From Pseudomonadota bacterium (GTDB lineage: Bacteria > Desulfobacterota > Syntrophobacteria > Syntrophobacterales > Syntrophobacteraceae), in assembly GCA_023416335.1 (NCBI GenBank), contig JAEZHY010000194.1, positions 1 through 22,625 of the forward strand: DNA of 22,625 nt, given 5' to 3'. The notes under the pieces were generated by a model. That model made no database searches. It was not told the DNA's origin and worked only from the letters and a program-made list of their open reading frames with translations. How positions within the stretch are numbered: the stretch's first letter is position 1; each line of letters opens with the position of its first letter. Shown one piece after another: positions 1 to 20,509 of this stretch. Position numbers and translations under genes: made by a program.

Positions 1-595
1 GGACCTTGACGCCTATGGACTGGGCCGCCGTTACGTATTCGCTTTCGCGGATGGACAGAAGAGCCCCGTGGGCCAGGCGCGCGAACCGCGGAGTCATAAC
101 CAGGCCGATCGTAAAGATCAGGTTGAAGAGGTTCGCGCCAAGAACGGCCGTAACTGCAACGGCCAATATGAGATCCGGGAAACACATGAAAACGTCGATC
201 AGGCGCATGATGGCGCTTTCGACCCTCCCCCGGTAATACCCGGCCACCATACCGAGGATCGTGCCCAGAACAAGGCCGAAAGTAACCGACCAGACACCGA
301 TAATCAGCGAAATGCGGCTCCCCCAGATGATGCGCGACAAAACATCCCGCCCGAAATCGTCGGTCCCCAGCAGGTGCTGCGCGCTGGCCCCGGTCAGCCG
401 ATACATCAGGTCCTGTTCGAGGGGATCGTAGGGGGCGATGAACGGAGCAAATATCGAAACAAGAACGATCAGTACCGCAACTATCCCTCCGGCGAGCGCG
501 GTTCGGTTCCGCAGGAAGGCGATCCACATCTTGCGGCCGATGGTCTTTTCAACCATCTCCGGGACGATAGGCTGTTCCAGTATTTCCTGTCTCAC
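1..595 (-). CDS. Peptide/opine-type ABC transporter permease, DppC family (partial, 3' end outside window)
   Basis: Inner-membrane permease subunit of a peptide/opine/nickel-class ABC importer, pairing with the DppB-like permease encoded just upstream. About 198 residues are visible; the frame is open to the window edge, so the C-terminal part is missing. The protein starts MRQEILEQPIVPEM, has a first membrane helix near residues 30-52 followed by FAPFIAPYDP, and then the family block LLGTDDFGRDVLSRIIWGSR. The transmembrane domain follows (GVWSVTFGLVLGTILGMVAG). The visible end, ESEYVTAAQSIGVK, is the start of the cytoplasmic EAA loop that docks the ATPase. I chose GTG at 595 because an in-frame TAA lies 6 nt upstream of it, so no earlier start is possible. 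The next ATG (556) would remove the first 13 residues. It begins 38 bp after the permease B stop, so the two are probably co-transcribed. Family assignment is firm; the substrate is unknown. Confidence 0.9.
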   Translation of the reverse strand, partial: MRQEILEQPIVPEMVEKTIGRKMWIAFLRNRTALAGGIVAVLIVLVSIFAPFIAPYDPLEQDLMYRLTGASAQHLLGTDDFGRDVLSRIIWGSRISLIIGVWSVTFGLVLGTILGMVAGYYRGRVESAIMRLIDVFMCFPDLILAVAVTAVLGANLFNLIFTIGLVMTPRFARLAHGALLSIRESEYVTAAQSIGVKV

Positions 596-633: not shown

Positions 634-1575
634 TCATCGGTACTTGATGCGCGGGTCGATCAAGCCGTAAACAAGATCCGTTGCGAGATTGAGCAGAACG
701 ACGATAATGGCGTAAATCACCATGACCGATTGAAATGTCACATAGTCCCGCTGCTTGATTGCGCCCACCATGAGTTTGCCGAGTCCCGGGCGCGAAAAGA
801 CGATTTCGACCATGACGGATGAGCCAATAAGCACGACCACGTAGAGTCCGCCGAGTGCCACGATCGGGATCAGGGCATTGCGGAGGACGTGTTTGAAAAG
901 AACGACACGCTCGTGAACCCCTTTGGCGTGAGCAGTCCGGACATAGTCCTCCCGGATTGTCGCGAGTATGGAGGAGCGGGTCATCCGGGTGATGTAGGCC
1001 GTCATGAGCAATCCGAGCGTCAGGCCCGGAAGGAACAGGTGCCGGAAGTTGTCCATGGGGTTGGAGAAATCCCCTGCGCCGACCACCGGGAATAGCGGGA
1101 ACTGAACGCTCAGGAGCAGGATGAGCAAAATACCGAGATAGAACGCCGGCACCGAGAGACCCAGAAGCGAAAATACCCGGTTGAAGTAATCGATAAACGT
1201 ATTCCGGCGGACTGCGGCAACGATTCCGAGAGGAATTCCCAATATGTAGCCCAGCATAATCCCGCAGAAAGTGAGCTGGAGGGTATGGGGCAGCACCTTC
1301 AGCATCTGCGCTCCGACGGGATACCCCGTAATGGCGGAAGTGCCGAGGTCGCCGCGGCAGATTTCGCCGAGAAAACGTAAGTACTGAAGCCACAACGGGG
1401 CGTTCAGACCCATTTTGGCGCGCAGGGCATCCACTGCTTCCTTGCTCGCGTAATCGCCGAGTGCCGCCACGGCGGGATCGCCTGGCAGCACCCGCACAAT
1501 TACGAAAACGAGCGTAAGCACCACGAAGAGAATGGGAATGCTCTGCAGAATCCGGCGTACAACGTAGTTGAACAT
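634..1575 (-). CDS. Peptide/opine-type ABC transporter permease, DppB family
   Basis: Inner-membrane permease of the same importer, 313 residues, which is normal for DppB/OppB/GsiC-type proteins. The N-terminus (VRRILQSIPILFVVLTLVFV) is the typical first helix, followed by the family motif RVLPGDPA near residue 30. A periplasmic segment with WLQYLRFLGEICRGDLGTS (residues 62-80) precedes the multi-helix core from about residue 95. The EAA loop is at about 210-232 (DYVRTAHAKGVHERVVLFKH) and a conserved C-terminal GLIDPRIKY closes the protein. It starts 75 bp after the binding-protein stop and is followed 38 bp later by permease C, an ordinary operon order. No ATPase gene is visible; one or two should follow permease C beyond position 1. 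Substrate class cannot be read from the permease. Confidence 0.94.
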   Translation of the reverse strand: MFNYVVRRILQSIPILFVVLTLVFVIVRVLPGDPAVAALGDYASKEAVDALRAKMGLNAPLWLQYLRFLGEICRGDLGTSAITGYPVGAQMLKVLPHTLQLTFCGIMLGYILGIPLGIVAAVRRNTFIDYFNRVFSLLGLSVPAFYLGILLILLLSVQFPLFPVVGAGDFSNPMDNFRHLFLPGLTLGLLMTAYITRMTRSSILATIREDYVRTAHAKGVHERVVLFKHVLRNALIPIVALGGLYVVVLIGSSVMVEIVFSRPGLGKLMVGAIKQRDYVTFQSVMVIYAIIVVLLNLATDLVYGLIDPRIKYR

Positions 1576-1650: not shown

Positions 1651-3285
1651 CTACTGAGCCAGAAGCCTCGTCTTTTCGTTGATCTGAGGCGTATAGGTCT
1701 GCCAGGCGAACTCCAGCGGACACCCGAGTTCGACATTGGACGTCATCGGGAAGACGTACAGGAGCCGGATGACCGGCAGGACCGCCACATCCTTCAGAAG
1801 CTGGATCTGGGCCTGCTTCCAGATCTCGATCTGCTTGTTCGCATCGAGTTCCCACCGGGCTTGCTCGATCAGGGAGTCGATATTGCCGACCTTGTCCTTG
1901 ACGGTGCCGTAATGAGAAAAATTGGTGTCCGGAGACTTGCCGCTCACTACCGCCATATCCGAGTGGTAGAAACGGGTAAGGAACACATCCACGTTAGGAC
2001 GCCATGAGGCATAGTAAACCACGGGGCTGGCATCCTTGCGGACCAGCGTGTGGAAAGATGCGTGATCGACCACTTTGAGCTGCATGTCGATTCCGGCTTT
2101 CTTCAACTGCGCCTGCAGGGCAACCATCGGCTTGCGGTAACTTGTATCCAGTTCGCTTACCACCGCCTCGAACTGAATCCCGTTCGGATAGCCGGCTTCT
2201 TTCAGAAGTTCTTTCGCCTTCGCTGCATCGTTTTCATATACGACTTCCGCCTTCTGGGCTTCTTCTTTGGTTAGAGCCCCTGGAGAAGGAGGGGCAAGCG
2301 CGGGGGAATAGATAGGAACAGCCATGCTCTTGCCCATGAATGCGGCCATTTCCTCGCGCGATACCGCGTAGCTGAAAGCTTTGCGAACTCGAACATCGTC
2401 AAAGGGTTTCTGAGTCACATTGAAGAAAAGCGTCTGCACTTCGCAGGGGCCGTATGCCTTCACCTTCACGTTCGGGAAAGCGGCGATCTTTTCCGCCCAT
2501 TTATCTTCATTAAGGCCCTCGATAATATTGAGTTCGCCCGTGCGGAGACCCATTTCCCGCGAACTTACGCTCGGGATGTAGCGGACGATGACCTGCTCGA
2601 GGATGGGCTTGCCGCGGAAGTACTTGTCGTTTCGCAAAAGCACGGTTTTCTGCTGGGGTTCGTAGCTCTCGAATTTGAACGGTCCCGTTCCGACAGGATG
2701 GGTCTTGAACCAGTCGTTACCCTGGGTTTCGATCGCTTTTTTGGCAACTATGAATCCACCTGCGTAATTGGCCACTTTTGCGAAAAACAGGGTCTCCGAG
2801 ATCGGCTTTTCAAGCACTACCTGCACCGTGTAGGGATCGACCGCCTTGAAATCCATTCCGCGATACTCTCCGGCATAGGCCGAAGTGTCCGCGGTGGCAG
2901 CCCTTTTCAGCGAGAACACTACATCGTCGGAGGTCAACTCATAGCCGTCGGGGTTTCCGGGGAAAGGATGAAAAAAGACGCCTTTGCGCAGGGTAAAGGT
3001 CCATATCTTCTTGTCGTCCGAGATCTTCCAGGATTCGGCTAAATCAGGTTCGATGCCCACCTGGTTTCCGAGCGGATAGCGGACAAGCCCGTTGAAAACC
3101 ATATCCAGGGTACTCCGGTCGGCAGTCGAAGCCGCCCGGTGCGGATCCAGGGACTGAGCGTCTCCGGAGTTGTACGCGACGGTAAGCACCTGCTTTTGAG
3201 CAAGCTTTTCCTGGGCTGAGGCAGCCAGCGCGCAAAGCGATATCATCAACGTCGCGAGTAGTACGATTACGGATAATTTCTTCAT
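1651..3285 (-). CDS. Extracellular solute-binding protein, family 5 (DppA/OppA-like)
   Basis: Periplasmic binding protein that delivers substrate to the permeases downstream; 544 residues, as expected for family 5. A Sec signal peptide is clear: MKK, a hydrophobic stretch, then ALAASA with likely cleavage before Gln25. The lone Cys18 is not in a lipobox, so it is probably soluble rather than a lipoprotein. Mature-protein landmarks are SLDPHRAASTADRS, MVFNGLVRY, PDLAESWKIS and FTLRKGVFFHPFPG, followed by LTSDDVVFSLKRA, all characteristic of SBP_bac_5. An AGGAG box sits 7 nt before the ATG. Family 5 proteins bind peptides, nickel, opines, glutathione and some small amines. The nearby methylamine-type cluster makes an N-methylated amino acid or betaine possible, but this is inference and the 577-bp gap argues against a single operon. 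Confidence 0.93.
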   Translation of the reverse strand: MKKLSVIVLLATLMISLCALAASAQEKLAQKQVLTVAYNSGDAQSLDPHRAASTADRSTLDMVFNGLVRYPLGNQVGIEPDLAESWKISDDKKIWTFTLRKGVFFHPFPGNPDGYELTSDDVVFSLKRAATADTSAYAGEYRGMDFKAVDPYTVQVVLEKPISETLFFAKVANYAGGFIVAKKAIETQGNDWFKTHPVGTGPFKFESYEPQQKTVLLRNDKYFRGKPILEQVIVRYIPSVSSREMGLRTGELNIIEGLNEDKWAEKIAAFPNVKVKAYGPCEVQTLFFNVTQKPFDDVRVRKAFSYAVSREEMAAFMGKSMAVPIYSPALAPPSPGALTKEEAQKAEVVYENDAAKAKELLKEAGYPNGIQFEAVVSELDTSYRKPMVALQAQLKKAGIDMQLKVVDHASFHTLVRKDASPVVYYASWRPNVDVFLTRFYHSDMAVVSGKSPDTNFSHYGTVKDKVGNIDSLIEQARWELDANKQIEIWKQAQIQLLKDVAVLPVIRLLYVFPMTSNVELGCPLEFAWQTYTPQINEKTRLLAQ

Positions 3286-3862: not shown

Positions 3863-4507
3863 CTATGCCAACAGGGCCTGCACGGCGGCTTTGGCGGCCT
3901 TTACGGCTGATCCCGCATCGGGGGCGTAACCGTCCGCCCCGATTTCTTCCGCAAACTTCTGGTTTACCGGCGCCCCGCCTACCAGAACTTTGACCTGCTC
4001 ACGCAGGCCGCTTGCGATAATTGCATCGACCGTTTTTTTCATCATGGGCATCGTCGTGGTCAGGAGCGCGGAGATGCAAACAAGTTGTGCATTCCGGGCC
4101 TTGATCTCCGAGATGAACCTCTCGGGGCCGATATCCACGCCAAGGTTGTACACTTCGAATCCGGCACTTTCCAGCATCATGGCGACGAGGTTTTTCCCTA
4201 TATCGTGAAGGTCGCCCTTTACTGTGCCGATGATGACTTTCCCTTTGGCGCTCATGTTCTCTTCCGTGTGCAGGTGCATCAGGGTCTTCAGCACATTCCC
4301 CATTGCCCTGGCGCACATGAGCACCTCCGGGATGAACATCTCCTCGTTTTCCATCTTGTCGCCGACAATATCCATACCGGCGAGAAGACCTTCATCCATG
4401 ATCTGCTTTACGGACGCGCCCTGGTCCAGAGCGTTTTGAACAAGTTCGGCGAGTTTGGTTTCATTGCCCGCAACAACCGATTCTATGATGGGTCCGAAGT
4501 CATGCAT
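3863..4507 (-). CDS. Corrinoid protein, MtbC/MttC/MtgC-type methyl carrier
   Basis: Cytoplasmic cobamide-binding protein that carries a methyl group between a substrate-specific methyltransferase and a second methyltransferase. It has 214 residues, the usual size for this family. Residues 1-85 form the helical B12-binding-2 cap (MDEGLLAGMDIVGDKMENEE, then IPEVLMCARAM). Residues 88-214 form the Rossmann-like B12 domain. The lower-ligand motif DxHxxG is intact as GDLHDIGKN, with His101 as the expected cobalt ligand. SALLTTTM (146-153) and VGGAPV (176-181) are the companion nucleotide-tail motifs. An AAGGAA box precedes the ATG by 6 nt. The start is 14 bp after the methyltransferase stop, so the two are translated as a pair and presumably act as a pair. 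Which amine is served is not determined by this protein. Confidence 0.95.
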   Translation of the reverse strand: MHDFGPIIESVVAGNETKLAELVQNALDQGASVKQIMDEGLLAGMDIVGDKMENEEMFIPEVLMCARAMGNVLKTLMHLHTEENMSAKGKVIIGTVKGDLHDIGKNLVAMMLESAGFEVYNLGVDIGPERFISEIKARNAQLVCISALLTTTMPMMKKTVDAIIASGLREQVKVLVGGAPVNQKFAEEIGADGYAPDAGSAVKAAKAAVQALLA

Positions 4508-4521
4508 TGTGAGTTCCTTCT

Positions 4522-5973
4522 TTAAAGCAGGATATCGAATCTTTCTCGAATTGCCCGATCCAACTCGCCGGAAATGTACGGCCTTTCATCGGCTCCAAGG
4601 ACCTTTTCGACCATCTTCCTCGCCCGCGTCCACGCGTCGGGAGCGCCGTCCTTTTCCCATTTGATCCGGCTCTTGCGGTCGGAAACGCCGTTGCCGCCGA
4701 AATACTCCGTATTCATGTACTTCATCGTGTGTTCGGAAGACATGAAGTTCGAACCCGGCCCGATCGCGTCGATAACGTCGAGTGCAAGGTGTTCCTCATC
4801 GACTTCTATCCCGTTCAGCACCTTGCAGCTCATGCCGATGATCTCGTCATCCATTACGAACTGCTCGTATGAGACGGCGAGCATCGACTCCAGCATTCCC
4901 GCGGCATGATGCACGTAGTTCGACCCGCCCATCGCGGCAAGGAGCGTTGTGAATCCTTTTTCCCATCCTGCCTGCGCATCGGGAATCTTTGAATCGGTAA
5001 GTCCGGAGGAATTGTAGTTGGGAACGCCGATGTAGTGAGACAACTGGTGGACCGCGGCGTTCATCATTCCGCATTCCACCGCCCCGCCCAGGTAGCCCAT
5101 TGTCCGCAGGTTGGCCATTCCCGGAATTCCGCCGTAAAGGACCGGAGACCCTGGGTTTGTGAGCTGACAGATCGTAATGCCGACGAGTTGTTCGGCGTGG
5201 AGCTGTGCAAGAGTTCCGGCCATCGTGATCGGAGAGGTCGAACCCGCCATCGGAGCGCAGGAGAGGGCAACCGGAATACGATTACGGGCGGCTTCCTGCA
5301 TGATCAGGGTCGATTGGGTGCAAAGTTTCAGCGGGCTGATGGCAAAACTGGCAATGACGGAGATAAAGGGCCTCTCCTGGAGCGCCTGCGCCCCTCCCGC
5401 AACGAGCGAGGCGATTTCGGCCGCGCGATAGAGCCCTTCGACCTCGTTTACTCCCGCCATTACATGCTTCGCGGTCCCCTTCAGACAGGCATAGAAAACA
5501 TTCGCATCGTATGCCGATTCCGGAATATCGGTCGGAATGCAGGGACGGAGGAAAAAATGCACGTTGTCGAGCTTGTCCACCAGCCGGGCAAGCTGATAGA
5601 GGTCCTTTAGAGTAGTCGGACGCGCCTTGCCGCTTTCGAGGTCCAATATGCGGATGGCCGCCCCGCCGGTACCCATGTGCACCCGATGCTCGGTCAGGTC
5701 GAGATCGTTTTTCCCGTCCCGGCTGTAGAGAATGACCCGGCTCGGGGCTTTGGAAATCTCCCGCGAGATCATCTCCCGGGAGAACCTGATCCGTTGCGCA
5801 TCCCGGTCCAGAGAAGCCCCCGCTTTTTCGAGCATCCCGAGAGTTTCATCGAGGCCCGATTCAAACGTGAAGCCGGTCTTCTCCAGTATGGTCAGTGCAG
5901 CCTCGTGAATCCTCTCCACCTGCGCTTCCGAAAGTGCGCGGTATTGAATGCCCGAAAGCCCTTTGCTGTCCAT
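4522..5973 (-). CDS. Trimethylamine methyltransferase family protein (MttB superfamily, non-pyrrolysine)
   Basis: Cytoplasmic methyltransferase of the MttB superfamily (PF06253), 483 residues. Members move a methyl group from a quaternary or tertiary amine to the cobalt of a cognate corrinoid protein. The archaeal and some bacterial trimethylamine enzymes read an in-frame UAG as pyrrolysine. Here the frame is uninterrupted, which places it among the non-Pyl members such as glycine betaine:corrinoid methyltransferase MtgB and enzymes acting on proline betaine or carnitine. Family landmarks are the N-terminal ILEKTGF, VHMGTGGAAIRILD, PVALSCAPMAGSTSP, GSPVLYGG and TDSKIPDAQAGWEKG. I chose the ATG at 5973, preceded by AAGGAG with 5-nt spacing, rather than an upstream ATG at 6033 that lacks a site. 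It lies 68 bp after the soxG-like gene and 14 bp before its corrinoid partner. Glycine betaine is the favoured substrate from context only. Confidence 0.9.
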   Translation of the reverse strand: MDSKGLSGIQYRALSEAQVERIHEAALTILEKTGFTFESGLDETLGMLEKAGASLDRDAQRIRFSREMISREISKAPSRVILYSRDGKNDLDLTEHRVHMGTGGAAIRILDLESGKARPTTLKDLYQLARLVDKLDNVHFFLRPCIPTDIPESAYDANVFYACLKGTAKHVMAGVNEVEGLYRAAEIASLVAGGAQALQERPFISVIASFAISPLKLCTQSTLIMQEAARNRIPVALSCAPMAGSTSPITMAGTLAQLHAEQLVGITICQLTNPGSPVLYGGIPGMANLRTMGYLGGAVECGMMNAAVHQLSHYIGVPNYNSSGLTDSKIPDAQAGWEKGFTTLLAAMGGSNYVHHAAGMLESMLAVSYEQFVMDDEIIGMSCKVLNGIEVDEEHLALDVIDAIGPGSNFMSSEHTMKYMNTEYFGGNGVSDRKSRIKWEKDGAPDAWTRARKMVEKVLGADERPYISGELDRAIRERFDILL

Positions 5974-6041
5974 ATCGACTCCTTGCCCTGCATACCATTT
6001 AAAGTCAGGTTTTTCCTGAGACTGTAAAAACAAGGGAACGG

Positions 6042-6797
6042 TTAGCGCTTCCTTTTCGGCTTCTTACGTGATGAAACCACTGCAGGCTTTGCCGGCTCAG
6101 TTGCCGCTGCTTCGGAAAGATCGGCCGCCACCGTGGGAGCGGTCTCCCTTATCACGGTCTCCTTTTCCATCCACCTTTTCGCCACCCGCTCAAACGCTTC
6201 CTCCCCTGCCGGCTGCAGACCGTATTCCTTTCCGGCATCGAGGATCGCATGCACCATATCGTGAGCGTATCCCCTGGAACAGGCAAGAAGAAGGACACCG
6301 TCCCTTCCGTCGCGCTCGAGAACCACGATCTGACAGGGCACATGCGAAAGAGGCCCCTGCAGCAGAAACGGTACGGTTTTTCCGGGTTCGGAAAAATACA
6401 AGGACGTCAGCTTCTCCGTGACCGGAAAAATGTCCCTGCCCAGAAGACCGAGCAGCACCTGCCCTTCCGTGGTCTCGGTGTATTCCTTTCCTTCGAACGT
6501 CTCAGGCGGTTGCCCGTGCAGGAACCAGACGGAAACCTGTGTCCTGTTCATCCTGTTGACCAGAACACCGTTTTGGAAGCTGCTCTTTCCCGGCGCATCC
6601 GGAACAATGAGTCCGAAGGGCTTCAGCTGCGCGATCCCGCTGTCCTGGATATCCCACTTCGGGCAATGGCTGAGGTCCACCAGCCATGGGCCTGCCCCCT
6701 CGCTTTCGTACTCGAGAACCACAGTCCAGTTTTGCCTGTTTTCCGTTCTTACCTGCCGTCCGGGAAAATGGACCGGGGATTTTCTTTCTATCGTCAT
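6042..6797 (-). CDS. Sarcosine oxidase gamma-like subunit (SoxG-like, divergent)
   Basis: Probable gamma subunit of the sarcosine/dimethylglycine oxidising complex, 251 residues. Its middle and C-terminal parts resemble the GcvT-like fold of SoxG. LVDLSHCPKWDIQD aligns with the usual N-terminal 'D-L-S' region, and LLACSRGYAHDMVHAILDAG resembles the SoxG block around 'PRSFAEYLWxWL'. The similarity is loose, and the call rests partly on position: it follows soxA by 74 bp in a soxB-soxD-soxA-soxG order. The last 35 or so residues are an Ala/Pro/Thr-rich linker ending in SSRKKPKRKR, a strongly basic tail that typical SoxG proteins (around 200 residues) do not have. The start at 6797 is supported by GGAGGA six nt upstream; a longer ATG at 6815 lacks a site. 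It could alternatively be an unrelated accessory protein. Confidence 0.62.
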   Translation of the reverse strand: MTIERKSPVHFPGRQVRTENRQNWTVVLEYESEGAGPWLVDLSHCPKWDIQDSGIAQLKPFGLIVPDAPGKSSFQNGVLVNRMNRTQVSVWFLHGQPPETFEGKEYTETTEGQVLLGLLGRDIFPVTEKLTSLYFSEPGKTVPFLLQGPLSHVPCQIVVLERDGRDGVLLLACSRGYAHDMVHAILDAGKEYGLQPAGEEAFERVAKRWMEKETVIRETAPTVAADLSEAAATEPAKPAVVSSRKKPKRKR

Positions 6798-6871
6798 TGT
6801 GAGTCCTCCGTGCATCGCCGCCCCCGCTGGAGCCGGATCGCTGCACCGGCGCGCAGTTGCCGATCGACGGT

Positions 6872-9784
6872 TTACATCTTCATCCGCTTGCCTTCAGGAT
6901 CGTAAAACGGCATGGGGACGACCTTTGCATGGAGAAGCACCCCCTTGCAGCCGTCCTCGTAAATGGAAAGCCTCGAACCCTCTACGGCGAGATCGTCATC
7001 CACCAGCGCCATCCCGACGGGTTCTTTCAGGGAATAGCTGTAGCGTGCCGTACAGACATACCCGCGTATGCGGCTGTCAACTATGGGTGACCCGTCTTTA
7101 GGGGTCCGGGAGCCGCCGTTTTCCATTTTGAAGCCGACGAGTTTGAGGCGCCCTTTCTGATCCTCGGTATGCCGGAGGGCTACCGCCCCGACTTTTTTCC
7201 ATTCCGGCATCTTCTGCCACAGGAAACTCAGCCCGAGGTCATGCAGCGTCGTGCGCTGCTCCGACTCGGACCCCAGGATGATGTGTCCTTTTTCGAGCCG
7301 CAGCGAACTTTGGGCTTCCAGCCCGAAATTCCTGATACCGAATTCTTTTCCGGCTTCTTCCAGGATATCCCACAGGGCCTGAGTGTATGATGAAGGTACG
7401 TGGAATTCGTACGAGAGTTCGCCGACGAACCCGAGCCGCATCGCCCGAACCGGAATTCCCTTGATTGAAAACTCCCGGTAGCAGGAAAACGGGAAGGCTT
7501 CGTTTGATACATCGGCATCTGCAACCTTCTCGAGGACCTCCCTCGCGTTCGGCCCGGCCAGGTTGATCACGCCGTAAGCGTCTGTGAGATTAACCAGATG
7601 GTAATTCCAGTTCTCATAGCGGGTGTGATAGCGGAACCATTCGGCGGTTACCCCAGCCCTTCCGGTCGAAGCCGTGAAAAAGTAGTCGTTTTCGCCGATC
7701 TTGGTCACAACGCCGTCGTCTATCACGCAGCCGTCTTCGTTACACATAGCGGTGTAACGCATCCTGCCCTGAACGACCCGAGACATGTCGCTCACGTAGA
7801 CACGCTGCAGGGCCTTCAAGGCGTCCGGCCCGTGAATCCGGAACTTTCCGAGAGTCGAGGCATCAAGCATGCCCACATTGCTGCGCACATTTTCGACCTC
7901 GGCCCGCGTGAATTTGTCTTCGGAAAACCGTCGCGCCCGCACCCAGACACCTACCCGCTCCATCACGGCACCGGCTGCCGCCTGCGAATGATGCAGCGGC
8001 GTGCGCTTGGCCATATCGTGGTTGGAACCCGCATAGGCCGCGATCAGGGCGGGAACGAGAGGCGCCCGCATGCTCGTGGGTTTTACTTCGGCGGGAGCTT
8101 CCCGGGTCGCTGCGACATAGAGCGGCAGGTTGTGACCGGGTATGCCCCCCTGGCCGGGACCGGTCCCAGCGGACGTAAAGCGCTTGATGAGTTCCGGCAT
8201 ATCGAAGCCCATGTCCAGCGCCTGGTTCACGTTCTTTATCGTGGTATCCTCATCGAAGCATATGAAGGTCTTACAGCCTTTGACCGGGGCCATCACGAAC
8301 TTCGATCCCCGAGCCGGACCGGCAAATGCAGCGAGTTCTTCCCCTGCAAGCCGTATTTGGGCGGATGCATCCACGCCGCAATCGGCGGCAGCACGGCACC
8401 CGGCCAGCAGCCCTGAAGCTTCGATCGCCTCTGGAGAGGCGTACCCGAGCATGCGTCCCGCGGCGTGCATTTTTTCGGGCAGTTCTTTCGGAAGGAAGAA
8501 TCCCGTATGATTGTCGTAGCTCATCTTCGCCTGACCGAGCGAAAGCGGACCCCATACCGGCGTGAAACCCGCCGAGGCGACAAGGGTATCGCACTCTATC
8601 CGGCGCTTTCGGAAACCTCCCGTAGTAGCCAGTTGAACCGAACTCAGGGTGTTCCAGCCCTTGGCTTCGGCTGCAACCCAACCACCGTAGTAAGGAATGC
8701 CGCGCTTTGCCAGTTCATCGAGCAATGCCGTGGACTGACCGTCTTCCCGGACATCAGCGACACAGGCGATATCGAGGCCGAGGTCCGCGAGATCTATTGC
8801 CGCTTCGATGCCCATGTCGTGCCCGATGCTGAACACGGCGCGCTTTCCGGGCAGCAGTCCCCAGGTATGAGTCAGCCTGTGGGCGCACCCGACCTGCATG
8901 ACTCCTGGCTTTTCGTTGTTGTTAAAGAGAAGAGGACGTTCGATGCAACCGGTCGCAACAACCACGCTTTCGGCACGAACTTCTATATAGCGCTCGTCGA
9001 AAACGTCCCCGTCTCCGCCCCGTTGCATCGCGGTGACCAGGCTGTTGCTGTATGTCCCGAGGAGGGACGCGGAGGTGAACACCCTGATGTTAGAAGTGCT
9101 CCGCACCTTTTCGGCAAGGTCCGAAGCCCTTCGGTAAAGCGGGACGCCGCTCCCGTTCTTAGCCGTCCTGTATTCGAAAGATCCTCCCAGCCACGGCCTG
9201 GCTTCGATTAGAATCACCGACAGCCCGGATTCCGCCGCTGCAAGGGCCGCGGACATACCTGCGGCTCCGCCGCCGATCACGCACACATCCGCGCGCGGAT
9301 AAATTTCGTCGTACTTCCCGGGCATCTCGAAATCCGGCTGCATCACTCCAAGCCCTGCAGCCTTGCGGATGCGCTCGATCACATGAGGCCACAGCCAGGC
9401 CGGTCTATGGAAAACTTTGTAATAGAACCCGGCGGGCATGGCCCAGCTCAGTGAATCCATAAAGCCCATGAGGTCGAATTCGGGTAAACCGACGACATTT
9501 TGAGCTTTCACACGCATGCCGCTTTTTGCCGGCGTGTTTTCGGCCCTTACGTTAGGCACGCCGTCCACTTCCATCAGCGTATTGCTGCATTCGCCGTCCA
9601 GGCTGTAGAGACCCCTCGGGCGATGGTATTTCAGACTGCGGCCGAAAATGCGGATGCCGTTTGCATACAGCGCACTCGCAACCGTATCGCCCTCGACACC
9701 CTGCATGACCCTGCCCTGATAACGGACCGAAATCGTATCCCTGGGATGAATTCGCAATGTGGGGAGATTTTCAAGCCTGTCCAT
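6872..9784 (-). CDS. soxA: Sarcosine oxidase alpha-like subunit (SoxA; dimethylglycine/sarcosine oxidation, GcvT C-terminus)
   Basis: Large subunit of a heterotetrameric sarcosine-oxidase-like complex; 970 residues, close to the roughly 965 of characterised SoxA. Residues 10-98 form the ferredoxin-like N-terminal domain with the block GDTVASALYANG and GRSLKYHRPRGLY. Only one cysteine (Cys66) is present there, so no 2Fe-2S cluster is expected in it. The dinucleotide-binding fold starts at 167 with VCVIGGGAAGMSAALA (glycines 171-176). The middle contains KRFTSAGTGPGQGG, matching the SoxA 'KRYTTxGxxxxQG' segment. From about residue 590 the protein is a GcvT-type aminomethyltransferase domain that in this family binds tetrahydrofolate and captures formaldehyde as methylene-THF. 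The ATG immediately follows the soxD stop (TAAATG), and a GAGGTGG within the end of soxD is the ribosome site. This suggests tight translational coupling with soxD. Confidence 0.93.
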   Translation of the reverse strand: MDRLENLPTLRIHPRDTISVRYQGRVMQGVEGDTVASALYANGIRIFGRSLKYHRPRGLYSLDGECSNTLMEVDGVPNVRAENTPAKSGMRVKAQNVVGLPEFDLMGFMDSLSWAMPAGFYYKVFHRPAWLWPHVIERIRKAAGLGVMQPDFEMPGKYDEIYPRADVCVIGGGAAGMSAALAAAESGLSVILIEARPWLGGSFEYRTAKNGSGVPLYRRASDLAEKVRSTSNIRVFTSASLLGTYSNSLVTAMQRGGDGDVFDERYIEVRAESVVVATGCIERPLLFNNNEKPGVMQVGCAHRLTHTWGLLPGKRAVFSIGHDMGIEAAIDLADLGLDIACVADVREDGQSTALLDELAKRGIPYYGGWVAAEAKGWNTLSSVQLATTGGFRKRRIECDTLVASAGFTPVWGPLSLGQAKMSYDNHTGFFLPKELPEKMHAAGRMLGYASPEAIEASGLLAGCRAAADCGVDASAQIRLAGEELAAFAGPARGSKFVMAPVKGCKTFICFDEDTTIKNVNQALDMGFDMPELIKRFTSAGTGPGQGGIPGHNLPLYVAATREAPAEVKPTSMRAPLVPALIAAYAGSNHDMAKRTPLHHSQAAAGAVMERVGVWVRARRFSEDKFTRAEVENVRSNVGMLDASTLGKFRIHGPDALKALQRVYVSDMSRVVQGRMRYTAMCNEDGCVIDDGVVTKIGENDYFFTASTGRAGVTAEWFRYHTRYENWNYHLVNLTDAYGVINLAGPNAREVLEKVADADVSNEAFPFSCYREFSIKGIPVRAMRLGFVGELSYEFHVPSSYTQALWDILEEAGKEFGIRNFGLEAQSSLRLEKGHIILGSESEQRTTLHDLGLSFLWQKMPEWKKVGAVALRHTEDQKGRLKLVGFKMENGGSRTPKDGSPIVDSRIRGYVCTARYSYSLKEPVGMALVDDDLAVEGSRLSIYEDGCKGVLLHAKVVPMPFYDPEGKRMKM

Positions 9785-10060
9785 TTATTCCACCTCGGGT
9801 GCGTTCACATCTGCTTTGACAAAGACTTCGAGATTGGTCCGTGTGTTTCGCAAAATCGTGAACCAGGACCCGCAGCCGTCTTTGTGGCACCACCATTCCT
9901 TCTGGATTCCGGCAGTGCAGTTGTTCATACAGGCATATTCGCACCAGGAAGCCGGGGTAAGTCCCGCTTCATCCGGCTTCGGCCCCTTGTCCTCGCCGCC
10001 GAACCGGAACTCGTATCCGTTCCGCCTCCCGCAAATGGGGCAGGTAATAGTGAGTGCCAT
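9785..10060 (-). CDS. soxD: Sarcosine oxidase delta-like subunit (SoxD) with extra cysteines
   Basis: Small zinc-binding subunit of the same complex; 91 residues from the ATG at 10060, which has AGGAG five nt upstream. A longer frame starting at 10102 lacks a ribosome site and reads into the soxB-soxD gap. The N-terminal ITCPICGRRNGYEFRFGGE is the SoxD signature. Cys7, Cys10, His59 and Cys63 fall at or next to the positions of the zinc ligands in the known heterotetrameric enzymes (Cys6, Cys9, His59, Cys63). The sequence also contains Cys40, Cys44, Cys48 and Cys58, where the SoxD sequences I can recall have non-cysteine residues (see findings). The stop abuts the soxA start. In the complex SoxD mainly packs against SoxA; whether this variant binds a second metal is open. 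Confidence 0.92.
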   Translation of the reverse strand: MALTITCPICGRRNGYEFRFGGEDKGPKPDEAGLTPASWCEYACMNNCTAGIQKEWWCHKDGCGSWFTILRNTRTNLEVFVKADVNAPEVE

Positions 10061-10129
10061 TTTTTCTCCTCTATATGCGATCGGGAATGGCCGCGTTAAC
10101 AAGCCATGCCCCTTCGCCTGTTTTCGCTC

Positions 10130-11353
10130 TCAATTGTCGGGAGAATAGCTCACGAGGGCCGCCGTCTCGCCCATCAGCCTGTGCTGTTCGAATCGGCGAA
10201 GCCCAAAGGGCTCGAGAATCTTCGGACATGCGTCGGTTGCCACGTATTGGGCCATGTACTTGCCTGCGACAGTCGAGGATTTGAAGCCAAAATATCCCCA
10301 GCCGCAGTCCATGAAGTAGCCCTTGACGGGGTAGTTGCCGTCCATGATGGGAGCCATATCGGGCGTCATGTCGGCGAGGCCCGACCAGTGGCGCATGAAC
10401 TTTACCCCTCTCAGGCACGGCAGCATCTCGGAAAGGGCCTCTGCCTGGTGTTTTATATAGTAGGCGGTGCACTGGGTTGTGTAGTTCGGCCACGCATCCA
10501 TGTGGGCGCCGGTCGCGATTTCGCCTTTGAGCGTCTGGTTGGCGTAGCAGTGATACATGCCCGATGAGACCACGTGATGGAGGAGCGGCTTCAGCGGTTG
10601 TGTCACCATCGCCTGAATATTGAGTACGCTTATCGGCAGACGGACTCCCAGCATCTGCGAGGAGATGGCGGCCGAATACCCGCCCGCAGCATTTAAGACC
10701 CGTGGAGTGTAGATCGGACCTTTATCGGTCTGGACGGAAACGACCCGGCCGTTTTCGACGCCGATCCCGGTAACCTCGGTATTCTGGTGAATATGGACGC
10801 CGCACTTCGAAGCGCCCTTAGCAAGCCCCCAGACAACCGCATCGTGCCGTACTATCCCGCCTGGCGGGTGGTACATGCCCCCGAAGATCGGATACCGCAG
10901 GCGGTCGGAGATATCGAGTGCCGGGATGAGTTCCTTGCATTCCTTTGGATCCACCAGCTTGCTCTCAATCCCGTAGAACTGGGCGGATGCGATCTGGAGC
11001 CGCATGGCTTTGAGGGCGGCATCGCTGTGAGCCAGGTTGAGGTTCCCGCAGTTGTAAAACATCAGGTTGAAGTCGAGTTCACGTGTCAGAACGGCCCATA
11101 GTTCGAGGGCTTCTTTGTACAGAGGCAGGTTCTCCTGGGTACGCTGATTGGCGCGCACAATTGCCGTGTTGCGGCCGGAGCCTCCAAAACCGATGTAGTT
11201 CTTTTCAATTACTGCAATGTTTGTCATTCCCTGATGGCGAGCGAGGAAATAGGCTGTTGCCAGCCCGTGGAGCCCTCCGCCTATAATGACTGCATCATAG
11301 CTGTGCTTGAGGGCACTCGGGTTTTCCCAAAGTCGTTTGGAACGCCGGAACAT
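10130..11353 (-). CDS. soxB: Sarcosine oxidase beta-like subunit (SoxB), FAD/FMN-dependent amine oxidoreductase
   Basis: Catalytic flavin subunit of the complex, 407 residues (characterised SoxB is about 405). The FAD-binding fold opens with AVIIGGGLHGLATAYFLA (residues 21-38). The segment GGIVRHDAVVWG places His170 at the spot where the beta subunit carries covalent FMN. NQTLKGEIATGAH keeps a lysine (Lys276) at the position equivalent to the oxygen-activating lysine of sarcosine oxidases. PDMAPIMDG near the C-terminus is the usual flavin-contact block. I chose ATG 11353, preceded by AGGAGG with a 6-nt spacer; the upstream ATG at 11437 has no site and adds residues before the Rossmann fold. 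It is the first gene of the leftward cluster, with the divergent RpiR regulator 310 bp away. Substrate could be sarcosine, dimethylglycine or a related secondary/tertiary amine. Confidence 0.93.
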   Translation of the reverse strand: MFRRSKRLWENPSALKHSYDAVIIGGGLHGLATAYFLARHQGMTNIAVIEKNYIGFGGSGRNTAIVRANQRTQENLPLYKEALELWAVLTRELDFNLMFYNCGNLNLAHSDAALKAMRLQIASAQFYGIESKLVDPKECKELIPALDISDRLRYPIFGGMYHPPGGIVRHDAVVWGLAKGASKCGVHIHQNTEVTGIGVENGRVVSVQTDKGPIYTPRVLNAAGGYSAAISSQMLGVRLPISVLNIQAMVTQPLKPLLHHVVSSGMYHCYANQTLKGEIATGAHMDAWPNYTTQCTAYYIKHQAEALSEMLPCLRGVKFMRHWSGLADMTPDMAPIMDGNYPVKGYFMDCGWGYFGFKSSTVAGKYMAQYVATDACPKILEPFGLRRFEQHRLMGETAALVSYSPDN

Positions 11354-11584: not shown

Positions 11585-11608
11585 TGTCATTTTCTTCAAA
11601 AATTGACA
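11585..11608. promoter_or_regulatory. Candidate operator palindrome TGTCA-N14-TGACA
   Basis: TGTCA at 11585-11589 and TGACA at 11604-11608 form an inverted repeat with an additional TTTT/AAAA pair inside. The right half coincides with the -35 of the regulator promoter, so a bound protein would block it. RpiR-family proteins bind imperfect palindromes in neighbouring promoters; this one is a candidate autoregulatory site. Confidence 0.3.
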
Positions 11609-11631
11609 TCTCACAGCACAGATGGTATTCG
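11603..11631 (+). promoter_or_regulatory. Candidate promoter of the RpiR-family regulator
   Basis: A perfect TTGACA at 11603-11608 is followed after 17 nt by TATTCG at 11626-11631, a modest -10. The expected start lies about 25 bp before the chosen ATG at 11664. Confidence 0.4.
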
Positions 11632-11663
11632 TCCCCAAAATGACATGGGAGAGGGAGGACCGG

Positions 11664-12551
11664 ATGGCAGCTTTTCTCCATCCTTTCATCGAGAAGATCC
11701 AGGCAAACAGGGACCGGCTCACCAAAAAGGGCAGGATCCTCACCGACAACATCCTTGCCGGTCCGCGAAAAGTCGTCTTCATGACCATTCGGGAACTGGC
11801 CGACCACTGCGGCGTCAGCGAGGCGACCGTCGTACGACTCATGCATCAGCTCGGGTTCAAGGGCTATAACGACTTCCAGCAGTCGCTGAGAGACTATGTG
11901 GACGTCGAACTCACATTGATCGAGCGCCTGGACCTGACCGACCTGGAAACTCCCGGCGGGAACCTCTTAAGTCGCGTAATTTTCGAGGAAATAGACAACC
12001 TGAAACAGCTGCACGAATCGCTCGACCTCGCGGCAGCCGACCGCGTAGTGGAACTTCTCGCTCAAAGGCCCCGGGTTTTTGTCGTGGGTTCGCGGCTTTC
12101 CTACACCTTCGCCTATTACCTGGGCTGGTCGTTGAGTAAAATCCGGTCGGGCGTTCAGATCCTTAAGGGAAGCGACAACACCGCGATCGACTGGCTTGCG
12201 ATAGCGCCTGCGGATTCGCTCGTCGTTCTGCTTGCAACCTCGCGTTACCCAAACGACCTGCTCAAGACGGCAAGAGCTGTCCGAAGGCAGGAAAAAACTC
12301 TCGTGGCGATAGCAGACAGCGCAAGCTGCCCTCTCATTCAATTCGCCCACGAATCTCTCATCGCCCCAACGCGCCACATTCCGTTCATAGGCAGTCCCTC
12401 AGCCCTTGCCAGCCTCATCAGCTTTCTCATCCAGAGACTTGCGGGCATGCAGGGCGACTGCACTAAGGCCCACCAGACAAGACTCGAGCAGAGCTATCTC
12501 GAAAATGATGTCTTCTTTAATCTTTATAAGGACGGAACAGAAGAGAAGTAG
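11664..12551 (+). CDS. RpiR-family transcriptional regulator (HTH plus SIS domain)
   Basis: Cytoplasmic DNA-binding regulator, 295 residues, the usual size. The N-terminal helix-turn-helix spans about residues 35-70 and contains TIRELADHCGVSEATVVRLM followed by the RpiR-typical GFKGYNDFQQSLR. The C-terminal SIS domain (about 115-230) shows VFVVGSRLSYTFAYYLGWSL and DSLVVLLATSRYPNDLLKTA. SIS domains usually sense phosphosugars, but the ligand here cannot be read from sequence. I chose ATG 11664, preceded by GGGAGG with 5-nt spacing, rather than the ATG at 11622. It is divergent from soxB across a 310-bp region with a palindrome over its own -35, so autoregulation and control of the sox-mttB cluster are plausible. 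A regulator of this family for amine demethylation would differ from the AraC-type GbdR used by pseudomonads. Confidence 0.9.
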   Translation: MAAFLHPFIEKIQANRDRLTKKGRILTDNILAGPRKVVFMTIRELADHCGVSEATVVRLMHQLGFKGYNDFQQSLRDYVDVELTLIERLDLTDLETPGGNLLSRVIFEEIDNLKQLHESLDLAAADRVVELLAQRPRVFVVGSRLSYTFAYYLGWSLSKIRSGVQILKGSDNTAIDWLAIAPADSLVVLLATSRYPNDLLKTARAVRRQEKTLVAIADSASCPLIQFAHESLIAPTRHIPFIGSPSALASLISFLIQRLAGMQGDCTKAHQTRLEQSYLENDVFFNLYKDGTEEK

Positions 12552-12696: not shown

Positions 12697-13989
12697 TCAC
12701 CCTCGACCTGCGATCTCCTTCAGCACCTTTCTTCCCGCATCCAGAATCGCATCGATCTCCGCCTCGCCGTGCGCGGTGGAGATATAGAGCTTTGTCGACA
12801 TGGGATTGAGGAAGATGCGGTTACGGAAGAGACCGAGCACAAATGCCCTCGCCTTTTCCGAATCGGCTCGAAAGGCGCTGCGGTAATCGACCACTTTTTC
12901 TCCCGTAAAGGAAAGCGCGCAGAGAGGACCGTCCCCGAGAACCTGGGCCGTGACGCCGACTTCTTTCAAAACGTCCCGGAATCCGTTTCGAAGCTTTTCC
13001 CCCATGACAAAAAGCCTTTCATAGGTGCCCGGCTTTCGGAGTTCTTCCAGGGTGGCGAGCGAAGCCGAGGTCGTCACAGGATTTCCGCCCAGAGTGCTCG
13101 CAAACCAGACATAGCCGTCCCGGCCGAGGGTGGATTCATCACACAGATCGAGAATTTCAGCGCGCCCGACAATTGCCCCCACCGGATACCCGCCGCCGAG
13201 CGCCTTGCCCAGGGCGGCGAGATCGGGCTTTACTCCGTAATATTGCTGCGCTCCCCCGTACGACAGCCGGAAGCCGGTTACGCATTCGTCGAAAATGAGC
13301 AGTATGCCGTGTTTCCTGGTGATCTCCCTCAAACCTTCGAGGAAACCGGGCAACGGCGAGGTGCACCTGTGGAGCGGTTCAACGATAACGCCTGCAATCT
13401 CGGAGGCATACTCGGCTATTATGCGGCTGGTGGTTTCCAGATCGTTATATGGAGCGATCAGGACTTCGCTGCAGGTCTTCTCCGTTATGCCCGCGGAAGT
13501 CGGGTTGGCTTGGGGAAAATCCACAAGGCGTTTTGGAAAGAGGCTTATGGAACCGAATTCGTTCGCCCCGTGGTATGCACCTTCGAACTTGACGATTTTA
13601 TCGCGTTTTCTGAAGGCACGCGCAAAGCGCACAGCGTACATGGTGGCTTCTGTTCCAGACGCGCAAAATCGCACCTTCTCGGCACACGGTACGGCGCGGA
13701 TAAGCTCTTCCGCAAGTTCCAGGGCAGGTTCGGATACATAGGAGAAGTTCGACCCCTGCACTACCCGGTCCCTCACCGCTTCGCAGATTTTCGGATGAGC
13801 GTGACCGAGAATGACCGAGCCCCATCCCATCGTGAAATCCACATACTCGTTGCCCTCGGCGTCGTAGACGTAGGCTCCCTTGCCCCGGGTCAGGACGATC
13901 GAGAGTTCCCGAGGGAGATTGTACTCACCGAGCGACCCGCCTGGAAACACCTTCCACGACCTCAAGCCCCATTCATTTGAATGCGTCAC
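12697..13989 (-). CDS. Class III PLP-dependent aminotransferase, HemL-like paralogue
   Basis: Fold-type I, class III aminotransferase of 430 residues, similar in size and layout to glutamate-1-semialdehyde 2,1-aminomutase (HemL). Visible landmarks are ASGTEATMYAVRFARA (PLP phosphate region), KFEGAYHGANE, APYNDLE, LLIFDECVTGFR with the pyridine-contacting Asp234, and PDLAALGKALGGGYPVGA with the Schiff-base lysine Lys262. The segment after VIVEP reads LHRCTSPLPGFLEGLR, whereas true HemL has 'GNMG' followed by the same FLEGLR. I therefore read it as a HemL-related aminotransferase or aminomutase, not the haem enzyme. The start GTG 13989 has AAAGGAG five nt upstream, better than the GTG two codons earlier that overlaps the site. 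It converges with the RpiR gene and follows the PHP/membrane gene by 93 bp. The substrate is unknown. Confidence 0.88.
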   Translation of the reverse strand: MTHSNEWGLRSWKVFPGGSLGEYNLPRELSIVLTRGKGAYVYDAEGNEYVDFTMGWGSVILGHAHPKICEAVRDRVVQGSNFSYVSEPALELAEELIRAVPCAEKVRFCASGTEATMYAVRFARAFRKRDKIVKFEGAYHGANEFGSISLFPKRLVDFPQANPTSAGITEKTCSEVLIAPYNDLETTSRIIAEYASEIAGVIVEPLHRCTSPLPGFLEGLREITRKHGILLIFDECVTGFRLSYGGAQQYYGVKPDLAALGKALGGGYPVGAIVGRAEILDLCDESTLGRDGYVWFASTLGGNPVTTSASLATLEELRKPGTYERLFVMGEKLRNGFRDVLKEVGVTAQVLGDGPLCALSFTGEKVVDYRSAFRADSEKARAFVLGLFRNRIFLNPMSTKLYISTAHGEAEIDAILDAGRKVLKEIAGRG

Positions 13990-14082
13990 CTTCACTCCTT
14001 TAACTGTTTGGGAATAATCGGATTGGATGCTGAGCGGTATATCGATACGAAAAGCGGGGGTAAGAAAACGGCACCCTTTTCA

Positions 14083-20419: not shown

Positions 20420-20509
20420 GCATTTCGAGCGCACCGGCATAAGCAGGAATACGGGCTCACCGGATATTCAATCTTGTAATACGTTTTGAGTTGGGTAGTT
20501 CAGGTGGTA

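Follow-up and report, generated by a model that had tools for sequence, protein, structure and literature searches.

The window analysed here, 22,625 nucleotides in all, belongs to a Syntrophobacteraceae-like member of the Desulfobacterota, related to sulfate reducers. Its PanC protein puts the host near Syntrophobacteraceae, with 95% identity only to unnamed proteins and 79% to a named MAG. The host is probably an anaerobe, as read across from relatives, and its gene content outside the window was taken from the relatives' genomes. Between positions 3863 and 11353, six open reading frames (ORFs), all on the minus strand, encode SoxB, SoxD, SoxA, a SoxG-like protein, an MttB-family methyltransferase and a corrinoid protein, in that order (Table 1). 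The ORFs and family matches bear out the identities, order and strand given to these genes in a first-pass annotation. That annotation also described a methyltransferase pair fused in one cluster, where "fused" stands for clustered; all the ORFs are separate. The upper coordinate of each of the six genes is its likely start, chosen from the starts of relatives and ATG codons. With these starts, the intergenic gaps from soxB to the corrinoid protein gene are 69, 0, 74, 68 and 14 nt. Promoter and terminator scans gave no excess over shuffles.

Table 1. Features of the operon and its surroundings in the window
Feature	Coordinates	Strand	Basis
Opp-type permease (OppC-like), truncated at window edge	2..595	-	blastp to OppC-like genes of L002 and L041
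Opp-type permease (OppB-like)	634..1575	-	family match; similar permeases in L002 and L041
Opp/Dpp-type substrate-binding protein	1651..3285	-	PF00496; possible importer of the system
Corrinoid protein (MtgC/MtbC-like)	3863..4507	-	PF02310 and PF02607; best NCBIfam match MtgC NF047996
Non-pyrrolysine MttB-family methyltransferase	4522..5973	-	PF06253; ORF to 6033, relatives start near 5973
SoxG-like gamma subunit	6042..6797	-	weak GCV_T match and predicted T-protein/SoxG-type fold; ORF to 6815
SoxA-like alpha subunit	6872..9784	-	Fer2_4 fold, Rossmann, A3 and folate-binding GCV_T domains
SoxD-like delta subunit	9785..10060	-	PF04267; alignment to 1vrq_D/2gag_D; ORF to 10102
SoxB-like beta subunit	10130..11353	-	DAO; 37.6% identity to 2gag_B; ORF to 11437
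Candidate operator, TGTCA-N14-TGACA inverted repeat	11585..11608	.	sequence and weak enrichment in relatives
Divergent RpiR/MurR-type regulator	11622..12551	+	HTH_6 and SIS; clade flanks Sox and MttB loci elsewhere

The Sox-like complex and the methyltransferase

Among solved structures, SoxA, SoxB and SoxD find their counterparts in heterotetrameric sarcosine oxidase (1vrq and 2gag). Alpha, beta, gamma and delta subunits are thus found together, the gamma subunit being assigned by predicted fold and position only. SoxA has Fer2_4, SO_alpha_A3, GCV_T and GCV_T_C domains, and the folate-binding GCV_T domain (PF01571) scores 245 bits. Despite the Fer2_4 match, we doubt that SoxA holds a 2Fe-2S cluster, since its first 100 residues contain one Cys. 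SoxD carries C-x2-C and H-x3-C, a Zn-type pattern. SoxB matches the DAO family (PF01266), and its His198 aligns with His173 of TSOX, the beta-subunit histidine that binds FMN covalently. This residue is invariant in all 19 aligned SoxB proteins, the window's included, as are Arg95 and Lys386, candidates for carboxylate binding.

The SoxG-like protein matches PF01571 weakly (24.0 bits, under the cut-off of 25.6) and has no credible match by sequence among solved structures. Its predicted fold (mean pLDDT 88.8) is closest to T-proteins and the alpha subunit of sarcosine oxidase; the gamma chains 1vrq_C and 2gag_C rank 16 and 17 among the fold matches, and a few relatives are labelled SoxG by a source. 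In the NCBIfam set TIGR01372/1373/1374/1375, SoxA, SoxB and SoxD fall below the cut-offs (715 vs 1164, 397.6 vs 529.45 and 65.4 vs 116.5 for the first three models, respectively) and the SoxG-like protein does not match the SoxG model. Judged by these scores, the window's Sox proteins are homologous to the four subfamilies and lie outside them. Such scores would also fit a general N-methyl amino or imino acid dehydrogenase (for proline, an opine or similar) whose proximity to mttB is incidental to betaine use, and the Sox superfamily does include other dehydrogenases. We consider this highly improbable in view of the full alpha-beta-gamma-delta set with its folate domain and conserved FMN-histidine position, a combination that we know of in no Sox relative that does not demethylate.

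MttB is a full-length member of PF06253 (E 8.8e-107, 357.6 bits, profile positions 30-490 of 500). Its reading frame has no in-frame amber stop and it is therefore a non-pyrrolysine member; pyrrolysine MttB (TIGR02369) was rejected for the same reason and because the score is 418.2 bits against a cut-off of 525. The best matches among solved structures are 2qne and 9yce, both MtgB, at 258 bits. Compared with the best 120 of 2742 homologues, MttB shows 70-80% identity, and the few named homologues are mostly from Deltaproteobacteria. The corrinoid protein scores below the curated MtgC cut-offs (NF047996, 199.9 vs 370 bits; NF047995, 174 vs 310 bits).

Linkage and regulation in relatives

The first-pass annotation had proposed a search for conserved gene order. 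Of the 63 MttB loci fetched, eight have SoxA and SoxG clustered with MttB, upstream of it and in the same orientation ("linked" loci); all eight fall among the 47 loci with MttB at 62-76% identity. All six genes are visible in six linked loci, counting L001, where SoxB is truncated by the contig start. L043 ends inside MttB at the contig end, and L044 breaks off within SoxA, with a disrupted MttB frame and no corrinoid-protein match. In the SoxA tree, linkage appears at four places, with three changes forced by well-supported branches; this tree excludes L130, which duplicates the L006 region, and L022, which comes from the same genome as L114, and has L114 (G017) labelled as unlinked. The MttB tree was built without the duplicates L130 and L114, and L044 was lost to the length filter.

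Among 27 MttB-clade genomes, picked for searching out of the 47 close-MttB loci, 21 have the SoxA clade, with a partial match in G021. We also scored a phylum sample of 296 genomes with thresholds of at least 52% identity for SoxA (two candidates per genome) and at least 58% for MttB (up to five), with one partial match each. Here the SoxA clade occurs in seven genomes, and SoxA and MttB occur together in three (2 of 295 once the centre genome is left out; Fisher P 0.002). The linkage of Sox and MttB is beyond chance.

The divergent RpiR gene points the same way. Of the 37 copies in its clade, 31 have a SoxA- or MttB-clade gene no more than 10 kb away, which holds for 1 of 12 remoter RpiR proteins, although the copies are not independent and the six away from both genes may reflect contig breaks. 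In seven genomes where Sox and MttB are unlinked (G002, G014, G016, G020, G021, G022 and G168), the clade is found within 10 kb of both loci; in G022, it is near a second MttB copy (53%). The best reading is that one RpiR clade co-regulates the Sox and MttB modules. The functional linkage claimed in the first-pass annotation is thus upheld by the linked loci, the co-occurrence of SoxA and MttB, the common RpiR clade and the SoxA tree.

The inverted repeat upstream of the RpiR gene is only a lead as a candidate operator. TGTCA-N-TGACA occurs exactly in 4 of 38 regions upstream of related RpiR genes (0.1 expected from mononucleotide shuffles) and with at most one mismatch in 12 of 38 (2.0 expected), but its position varies among regions and several of these loci are near-copies or duplicates. 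A half-site also overlaps TTGACA, which is a -35 word.

The two modules could instead share regulation and a C1 pool while serving different compounds, with MttB demethylating one betaine whose product is excreted and SoxBDAG acting on imported sarcosine or dimethylglycine. The modules are more than 10 kb apart or on different contigs in 12 of the 21 genomes, although in nine of these the two genes sit on separate contigs, so that their true distance is not given. The six of 27 MttB genomes without the SoxA clade would fit this as well, and so would G307, where SoxBDAG adjoins an OsmF-type transporter (L121) and MttB has no match at E 1e-110. We find it quite unlikely, as it does not sit well with the recurrence of the cluster at four points in the SoxA tree or with one RpiR clade near both unlinked loci in seven genomes.

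Substrate and proposed route

With a probability of roughly 60%, we read the locus as an anaerobic, co-regulated operon for demethylating a quaternary amino acid that the cell imports, glycine betaine being the likeliest. MttB would transfer one methyl of the imported betaine to the corrinoid protein, from which an MtgA-like enzyme encoded outside the window would hand it to tetrahydrofolate (THF). The SoxBDAG-like complex would oxidise methyls of the demethylated product, the folate domain of SoxA would place the carbon on THF to give methylene-THF, and the electrons would pass to an acceptor other than oxygen; O2 is an unlikely acceptor for this complex. The acceptor and the number of methyls taken by each enzyme are inferred.

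Glycine betaine is the favoured substrate, and its methyl would, on sequence grounds, be the one that MttB moves to the corrinoid. MttB superfamily members vary in substrate (excerpt of PMC8604678), and MttB is remote from MtgB at 258 bits, which counts against this main reading. So do the six of 27 MttB genomes lacking SoxA of the window's clade, the four of seven SoxA-clade genomes in the phylum sample lacking an MttB-clade match, and the five of eight linked loci lacking an MtgA-like gene in the available locus DNA. The other three (L003, L006 and L043) have an MtgA-like gene placed between those for SoxG and MttB, together with transport genes in L003. An apparent MtgA-MttB fusion in L006 was rejected because it came from extending the wrong frame; at that locus MtgA has a gene of its own. 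In the window, tblastn found no MtgA, OsmF-type binding protein, RamA or ETF genes, and the window thus does not hold a complete Mtg set, with MtgA in the same locus.

The extra flavoproteins bear on how far demethylation would go. A stand-alone DAO protein (DAO445) is found in none of the eight linked genomes, compared with 12 of 12 genomes with MttB and unlinked Sox, and DMGDH-like proteins are absent in seven of the eight. The linked genomes therefore have no dedicated enzyme for a dimethylglycine step, which leaves three readings: SoxBDAG covers the dimethyl stage, MttB acts a second time, or a dimethyl betaine is the compound used. Many of these genomes are incomplete MAGs, and the absences can be trusted most in G004 and G024, the genomes of the two Desulfacinum isolates. 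The lack of DAO445 is not peculiar to the linked operon, because it is also missing from G017 (Sox and MttB 8.3 kb apart; a DMGDH-like protein is present) and from G057, G307 and G249 among the SoxA-clade, MttB-clade-negative genomes of the phylum sample, where G120 and G168 have it.

The first-pass annotation suggested that the second and third methyls could reach THF through SoxA. This is no more than a proposal, since characterised SoxBDAG enzymes act on sarcosine, and MttB genomes with unlinked Sox carry extra flavoproteins that linked genomes do not. In a tentative form that we hold at well below even odds, an oxygen-free route would need two enzymes: MttB would remove the first methyl, and SoxBDAG, as a dehydrogenase, would turn over dimethylglycine and sarcosine alike; methyl- and methylene-THF would feed the C1 pool of a sulfate reducer. 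Glycine betaine could in this way be fully demethylated to glycine. The linked-operon genomes hold the minimal set for a two-enzyme route, and in five of the eight the linked MttB is the sole family member found (the broken gene of G026 being taken as one).

A DAO445-EtfB-EtfA set is present in many of the unlinked Sox loci. Among 14 genomes compared, the best EtfA match is 33-40% identical in seven linked genomes (44% in G026) and 49-70% in five unlinked ones. We do not claim ETF as the acceptor for the linked operon, as the ETF pair tracks the extra flavoprotein and not Sox.

A different substrate would account for the missing dimethylglycine enzyme. With proline betaine (stachydrine) or another dimethyl betaine, none is needed because only two methyls exist; MttB would act like MtpB, the proline betaine methyltransferase of Eubacterium limosum, to give N-methylproline, and SoxBDAG would yield proline. 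The absence of DAO445 from all eight linked genomes and of DMGDH-like proteins from seven agrees with this, and MtpB belongs to the same MttB superfamily (excerpt of PMC8604678). The transporter adjoining the window operon is Opp-type, as is Prb, the proline betaine transporter of Sinorhizobium meliloti (according to the title of a paper cited in PMC11337228). A similar Opp set occurs in MttB loci L002 and L041 (binding protein 64-70% identical, permeases 64-86%). Among the loci read, however, only these two and the window have this set near MttB, and Opp-type transporters carry many substrates. Other Opp sets, in L007, L019 and L026, are 28-40% identical, and a plasmid search with the Opp binding protein gave generic ABC annotations only among the matches listed. 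OpuAC-type transporters, which favour the main reading, are commoner, with an OpuAC (PF04069) binding protein downstream in five of eight linked loci (L003, L006, L041, L044 and L046) and no PF04069 match in G007 and G023; proline betaine, too, is among the compounds that such transporters can carry. Sarcosine is what characterised SoxBDAG enzymes act on and prefer, which further speaks against proline betaine, and we regard it as unlikely.

Comparison with known systems

The window complex resembles TSOX (1vrq, 2gag) in its four subunits and their domains, the FMN-histidine position, the Zn-type SoxD pattern and the folate domain. It differs in adjoining a corrinoid methyltransferase in presumed anaerobes, and in SoxB being only 37.6% identical. 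With the MtgB/MtgC/MtgA system of Desulfitobacterium it shares a non-pyrrolysine PF06253 enzyme and a corrinoid protein (and, in L003, L006 and L043, an MtgA-like gene), whereas the window lacks MtgA and is joined to SoxBDAG.

Two corrections to the background of the first-pass annotation are needed. It held that MtgB systems usually stop at dimethylglycine, but the available part of PMC12478193 describes an aerobe, Ruegeria pomeroyi, that demethylates glycine betaine by corrinoid MtgBC(D), and reports that genes for later demethylation frequently neighbour mtgBCD in marine Alpha-, Gamma- and Deltaproteobacteria. Corrinoid betaine demethylation with such genes nearby is what our locus would share; according to the same excerpt, the hosts there are aerobic and the route is tied to methionine synthesis. 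Alphaproteobacterial MttB proteins among the fetched loci are only 36-38% identical to that of the window. Second, soxB, DMGDH and opuABC are listed in the legend of a figure of grdH and mtgB clusters from a cold-seep metagenome (PMC8547467, seen in part), a likeness drawn from the legend alone; the mtgB pathway is given there as demethylation to dimethylglycine. Corrinoid betaine demethylation near later-step genes being already known in aerobes (PMC12478193, in excerpt), what is new is the presumably anaerobic, co-regulated version.

If the proposed pathway is true, sediment anaerobes would have in a single regulon the means to bring a major marine osmolyte down as far as glycine, where the alternatives end at dimethylglycine or yield trimethylamine, a methane precursor. 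Betaine carbon would then shift from methane to sulfate reduction, and a textbook oxidase family would function without oxygen. The pathway is open to testing, as the Desulfacinum isolates have the linked operon. Glycine-cleavage genes, recognised by eye, lie beside a second GCV_T gene in five linked genomes.

Gene run of the window and identity of its products

The first-pass annotation had described six genes in one order on one strand, from soxB to the corrinoid protein gene, and open reading frames and family matches confirmed both the order and the single minus strand. The coordinates of these and other features are collected in the table.

Features of the window and of related loci (L, genome loci fetched around MttB or Sox homologs)
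Feature	Location	Strand	Basis or remark
soxB-soxD-soxA-soxG-mttB-corrinoid protein	window 11353 down to 3863	minus	ORFs and family matches
RpiR/SIS-type regulator, divergent to the sox run	window 11622-12551	plus	family match
Opp-type binding protein and two permeases, downstream of the run	window 3285 down to 2	minus	
Candidate operator between soxB and the RpiR gene	window 11585-11608		inverted repeat
Class III aminotransferase, GSAM-like, adjoining the RpiR gene	window 12697-13995		NCBIfam scores below cut-offs
1043-aa ORF	window 14083-17214	minus	no match in Pfam, NCBIfam or PADLOC
Helicase-like ORF, extending past the window end	window 20486-22624		weak PADLOC matches, mostly UvrD-type helicases
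SoxBDAG directly adjoining an OsmF-type ABC transporter and c3 protein	L121:4228-13889		genome G307
c3 protein, about 1515 aa (example)	L035:9308-13855		GlmS-like SIS domains; class II glutamine amidotransferase-like N-terminus (by eye)
MmgE/PrpD-family gene near MttB (cluster c6)	L026:5878-7215		also at 16 other loci
Carbon-nitrogen hydrolase gene near MttB (cluster c14)	L016:13281-14201		also at 5 other loci

The solved heterotetrameric sarcosine oxidase (TSOX) aligns with SoxA, SoxB and SoxD of the window. The SoxB residue aligned to TSOX His173, the FMN-binding histidine, is invariant in 19 of 19 SoxB sequences, the window's included, as are Arg95, Tyr298, Lys304 and Lys386. The SoxG-like protein was too divergent to give a match in sequence searches of NCBIfam and solved structures, and its Pfam match to GCV_T fell below threshold. 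With its predicted fold, T-proteins and sarcosine oxidase alpha chains rank best, and the gamma chains 1vrq_C and 2gag_C stand at ranks 16 and 17. MttB, a PF06253 protein of the non-pyrrolysine type, has its best match among solved structures in MtgB, a name given to 2qne in a passage of PMC9842639. The PanC sequence points to a host resembling Syntrophobacteraceae.

Conservation of the Sox-MttB linkage

A GTDB genome scan with MttB as the query returned 63 loci: 47 share 62-76% identity with it, and the other 16, at 36-38%, are alphaproteobacterial. Judged by record title, the 47 close loci are mostly from Deltaproteobacteria and Desulfobacterota; three are from Spirochaetes-type MAGs and one is from a Planctomycetota MAG. 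The MttB tree places its 47 close rows in a single group, separate from three alphaproteobacterial rows. The search for a conserved sox-mttB order, which had been proposed as a check, showed that the cluster recurs: eight of the 47 loci (L001, L003, L004 from Desulfacinum hydrothermale, L006, L041 from D. infernum, L043, L044 and L046) carry SoxA and SoxG upstream of MttB within a single cluster.

A SoxA clade at 59-68% identity was found in 21 of 27 genomes with the MttB clade (one match is partial). The two genes are at most 10 kb apart in nine of these, the eight clusters plus G017 (8.3 kb); in the remaining 12 they are more than 10 kb apart or on different contigs. Linked loci occupy four separate positions in the SoxA tree (27 rows). 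One is the Desulfacinum clade, L001 and L003 account for two more, and the last is a clade that groups the window with L044, L043 and L006 (support 100/98). This tree needs four changes between linked and unlinked, three of them forced by well-supported branches. Among 296 genomes sampled across the phylum, the SoxA clade (at least 52% identity) is present in seven, the MttB clade (at least 58%) in five and both in three, two of which are Desulfacinum species. Once the centre genome is omitted, both occur in 2 of 295 (Fisher P 0.002).

A regulator class common to both modules

RpiR proteins 42-58% identical to that of the window form a separate class (n=37; 25 genomes searched). Of these 37, 31 are encoded at most 10 kb from a gene of the SoxA or MttB clade, versus 1 of 12 remoter RpiR proteins. 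In seven genomes with unlinked modules (G002, G014, G016, G020, G021, G022 and G168), class members lie within 10 kb of both Sox and MttB; the one on the MttB side in G022 is near a second MttB copy (53% identity). Five genomes (G005, G007, G010, G013 and G015) have a class member near only one of the two, and the RpiR search of G023 gave none. This common class is the strongest evidence that the Sox and MttB modules serve one pathway.

Proposed pathway and substrate

The system most likely works in three steps. MttB would load one methyl group of the substrate onto the corrinoid protein, from which an MtgA-like enzyme would pass it on to THF, and SoxBDAG would oxidize the methyl groups of the demethylated product onto THF. 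An MtgA-like gene is placed between SoxG and MttB in L003, L006 and L043. Glycine betaine as the substrate would agree with the transporter genes nearby and with the closest relative of solved structure; OpuAC/OsmF-type binding proteins are encoded downstream in L003, L006, L041, L044 and L046, with PF04069 matches at the same places.

Fused proteins resembling dimethylglycine dehydrogenase (DMGDH) were not found in seven of the eight linked genomes, where the GCV_T family consists of SoxA or SoxG only, plus a second protein read as GcvT in five. Glycine-cleavage genes, recognized by eye, adjoin the second GCV_T gene in G004, G006, G024, G025 and G027. The other linked genome, G026, has two DMGDH-like frames. 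Since most linked genomes lack a dimethylglycine enzyme, there are three options. SoxBDAG may accept dimethylglycine, or MttB may act twice, as cautiously suggested for Sporomusa in work cited in a passage of PMC9768040. The third is a substrate with only two methyl groups, such as proline betaine, for which the S. meliloti transporter is Opp-like according to the title of a paper that PMC11337228 cites. Each of G001, G003, G006 and G025 carries a single MttB-family gene; G026 has one that is broken, G004 has two, and G024 and G027 have four each. In G024 (C25), G027 (C55), G014 (C49), G016, G007 and G017 there are MttB-family frames interrupted by a single TAG, which are likely to be pyrrolysine members.

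In many unlinked Sox loci an RpiR gene stands beside soxB-D-A-G, and next come genes for a second DAO flavoprotein (about 445 aa) and EtfB-EtfA. All 12 genomes that combine MttB with unlinked Sox have this flavoprotein, as does G168. None of the 8 linked genomes has it, and it is also missing from three Sox-bearing genomes without MttB.

In this pairing SoxBDAG may act without oxygen and on dimethylglycine. MtgBCD is described in aerobic marine bacteria, often with later demethylation genes nearby (passages of PMC12478193, PNAS 2025), a figure legend on grdH and mtgB clusters from a cold seep names soxB and DMGDH (PMC8547467), and marine Deltaproteobacteria carry non-pyrrolysine MttB copies (a passage of PMC8318568). 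Judged mostly by titles and abstract openings, and for some by passages, none of the papers listed in searches of a mainly open-access literature describes a sulfate reducer in which SoxBDAG is joined to MttB.

In G307, where SoxBDAG adjoins c3, an MttB-clade search at E 1e-110 gave no match. The c3 protein, whose role in betaine use is not obvious, lies near MttB in 22 of the 63 loci, three of them linked to SoxBDAG.
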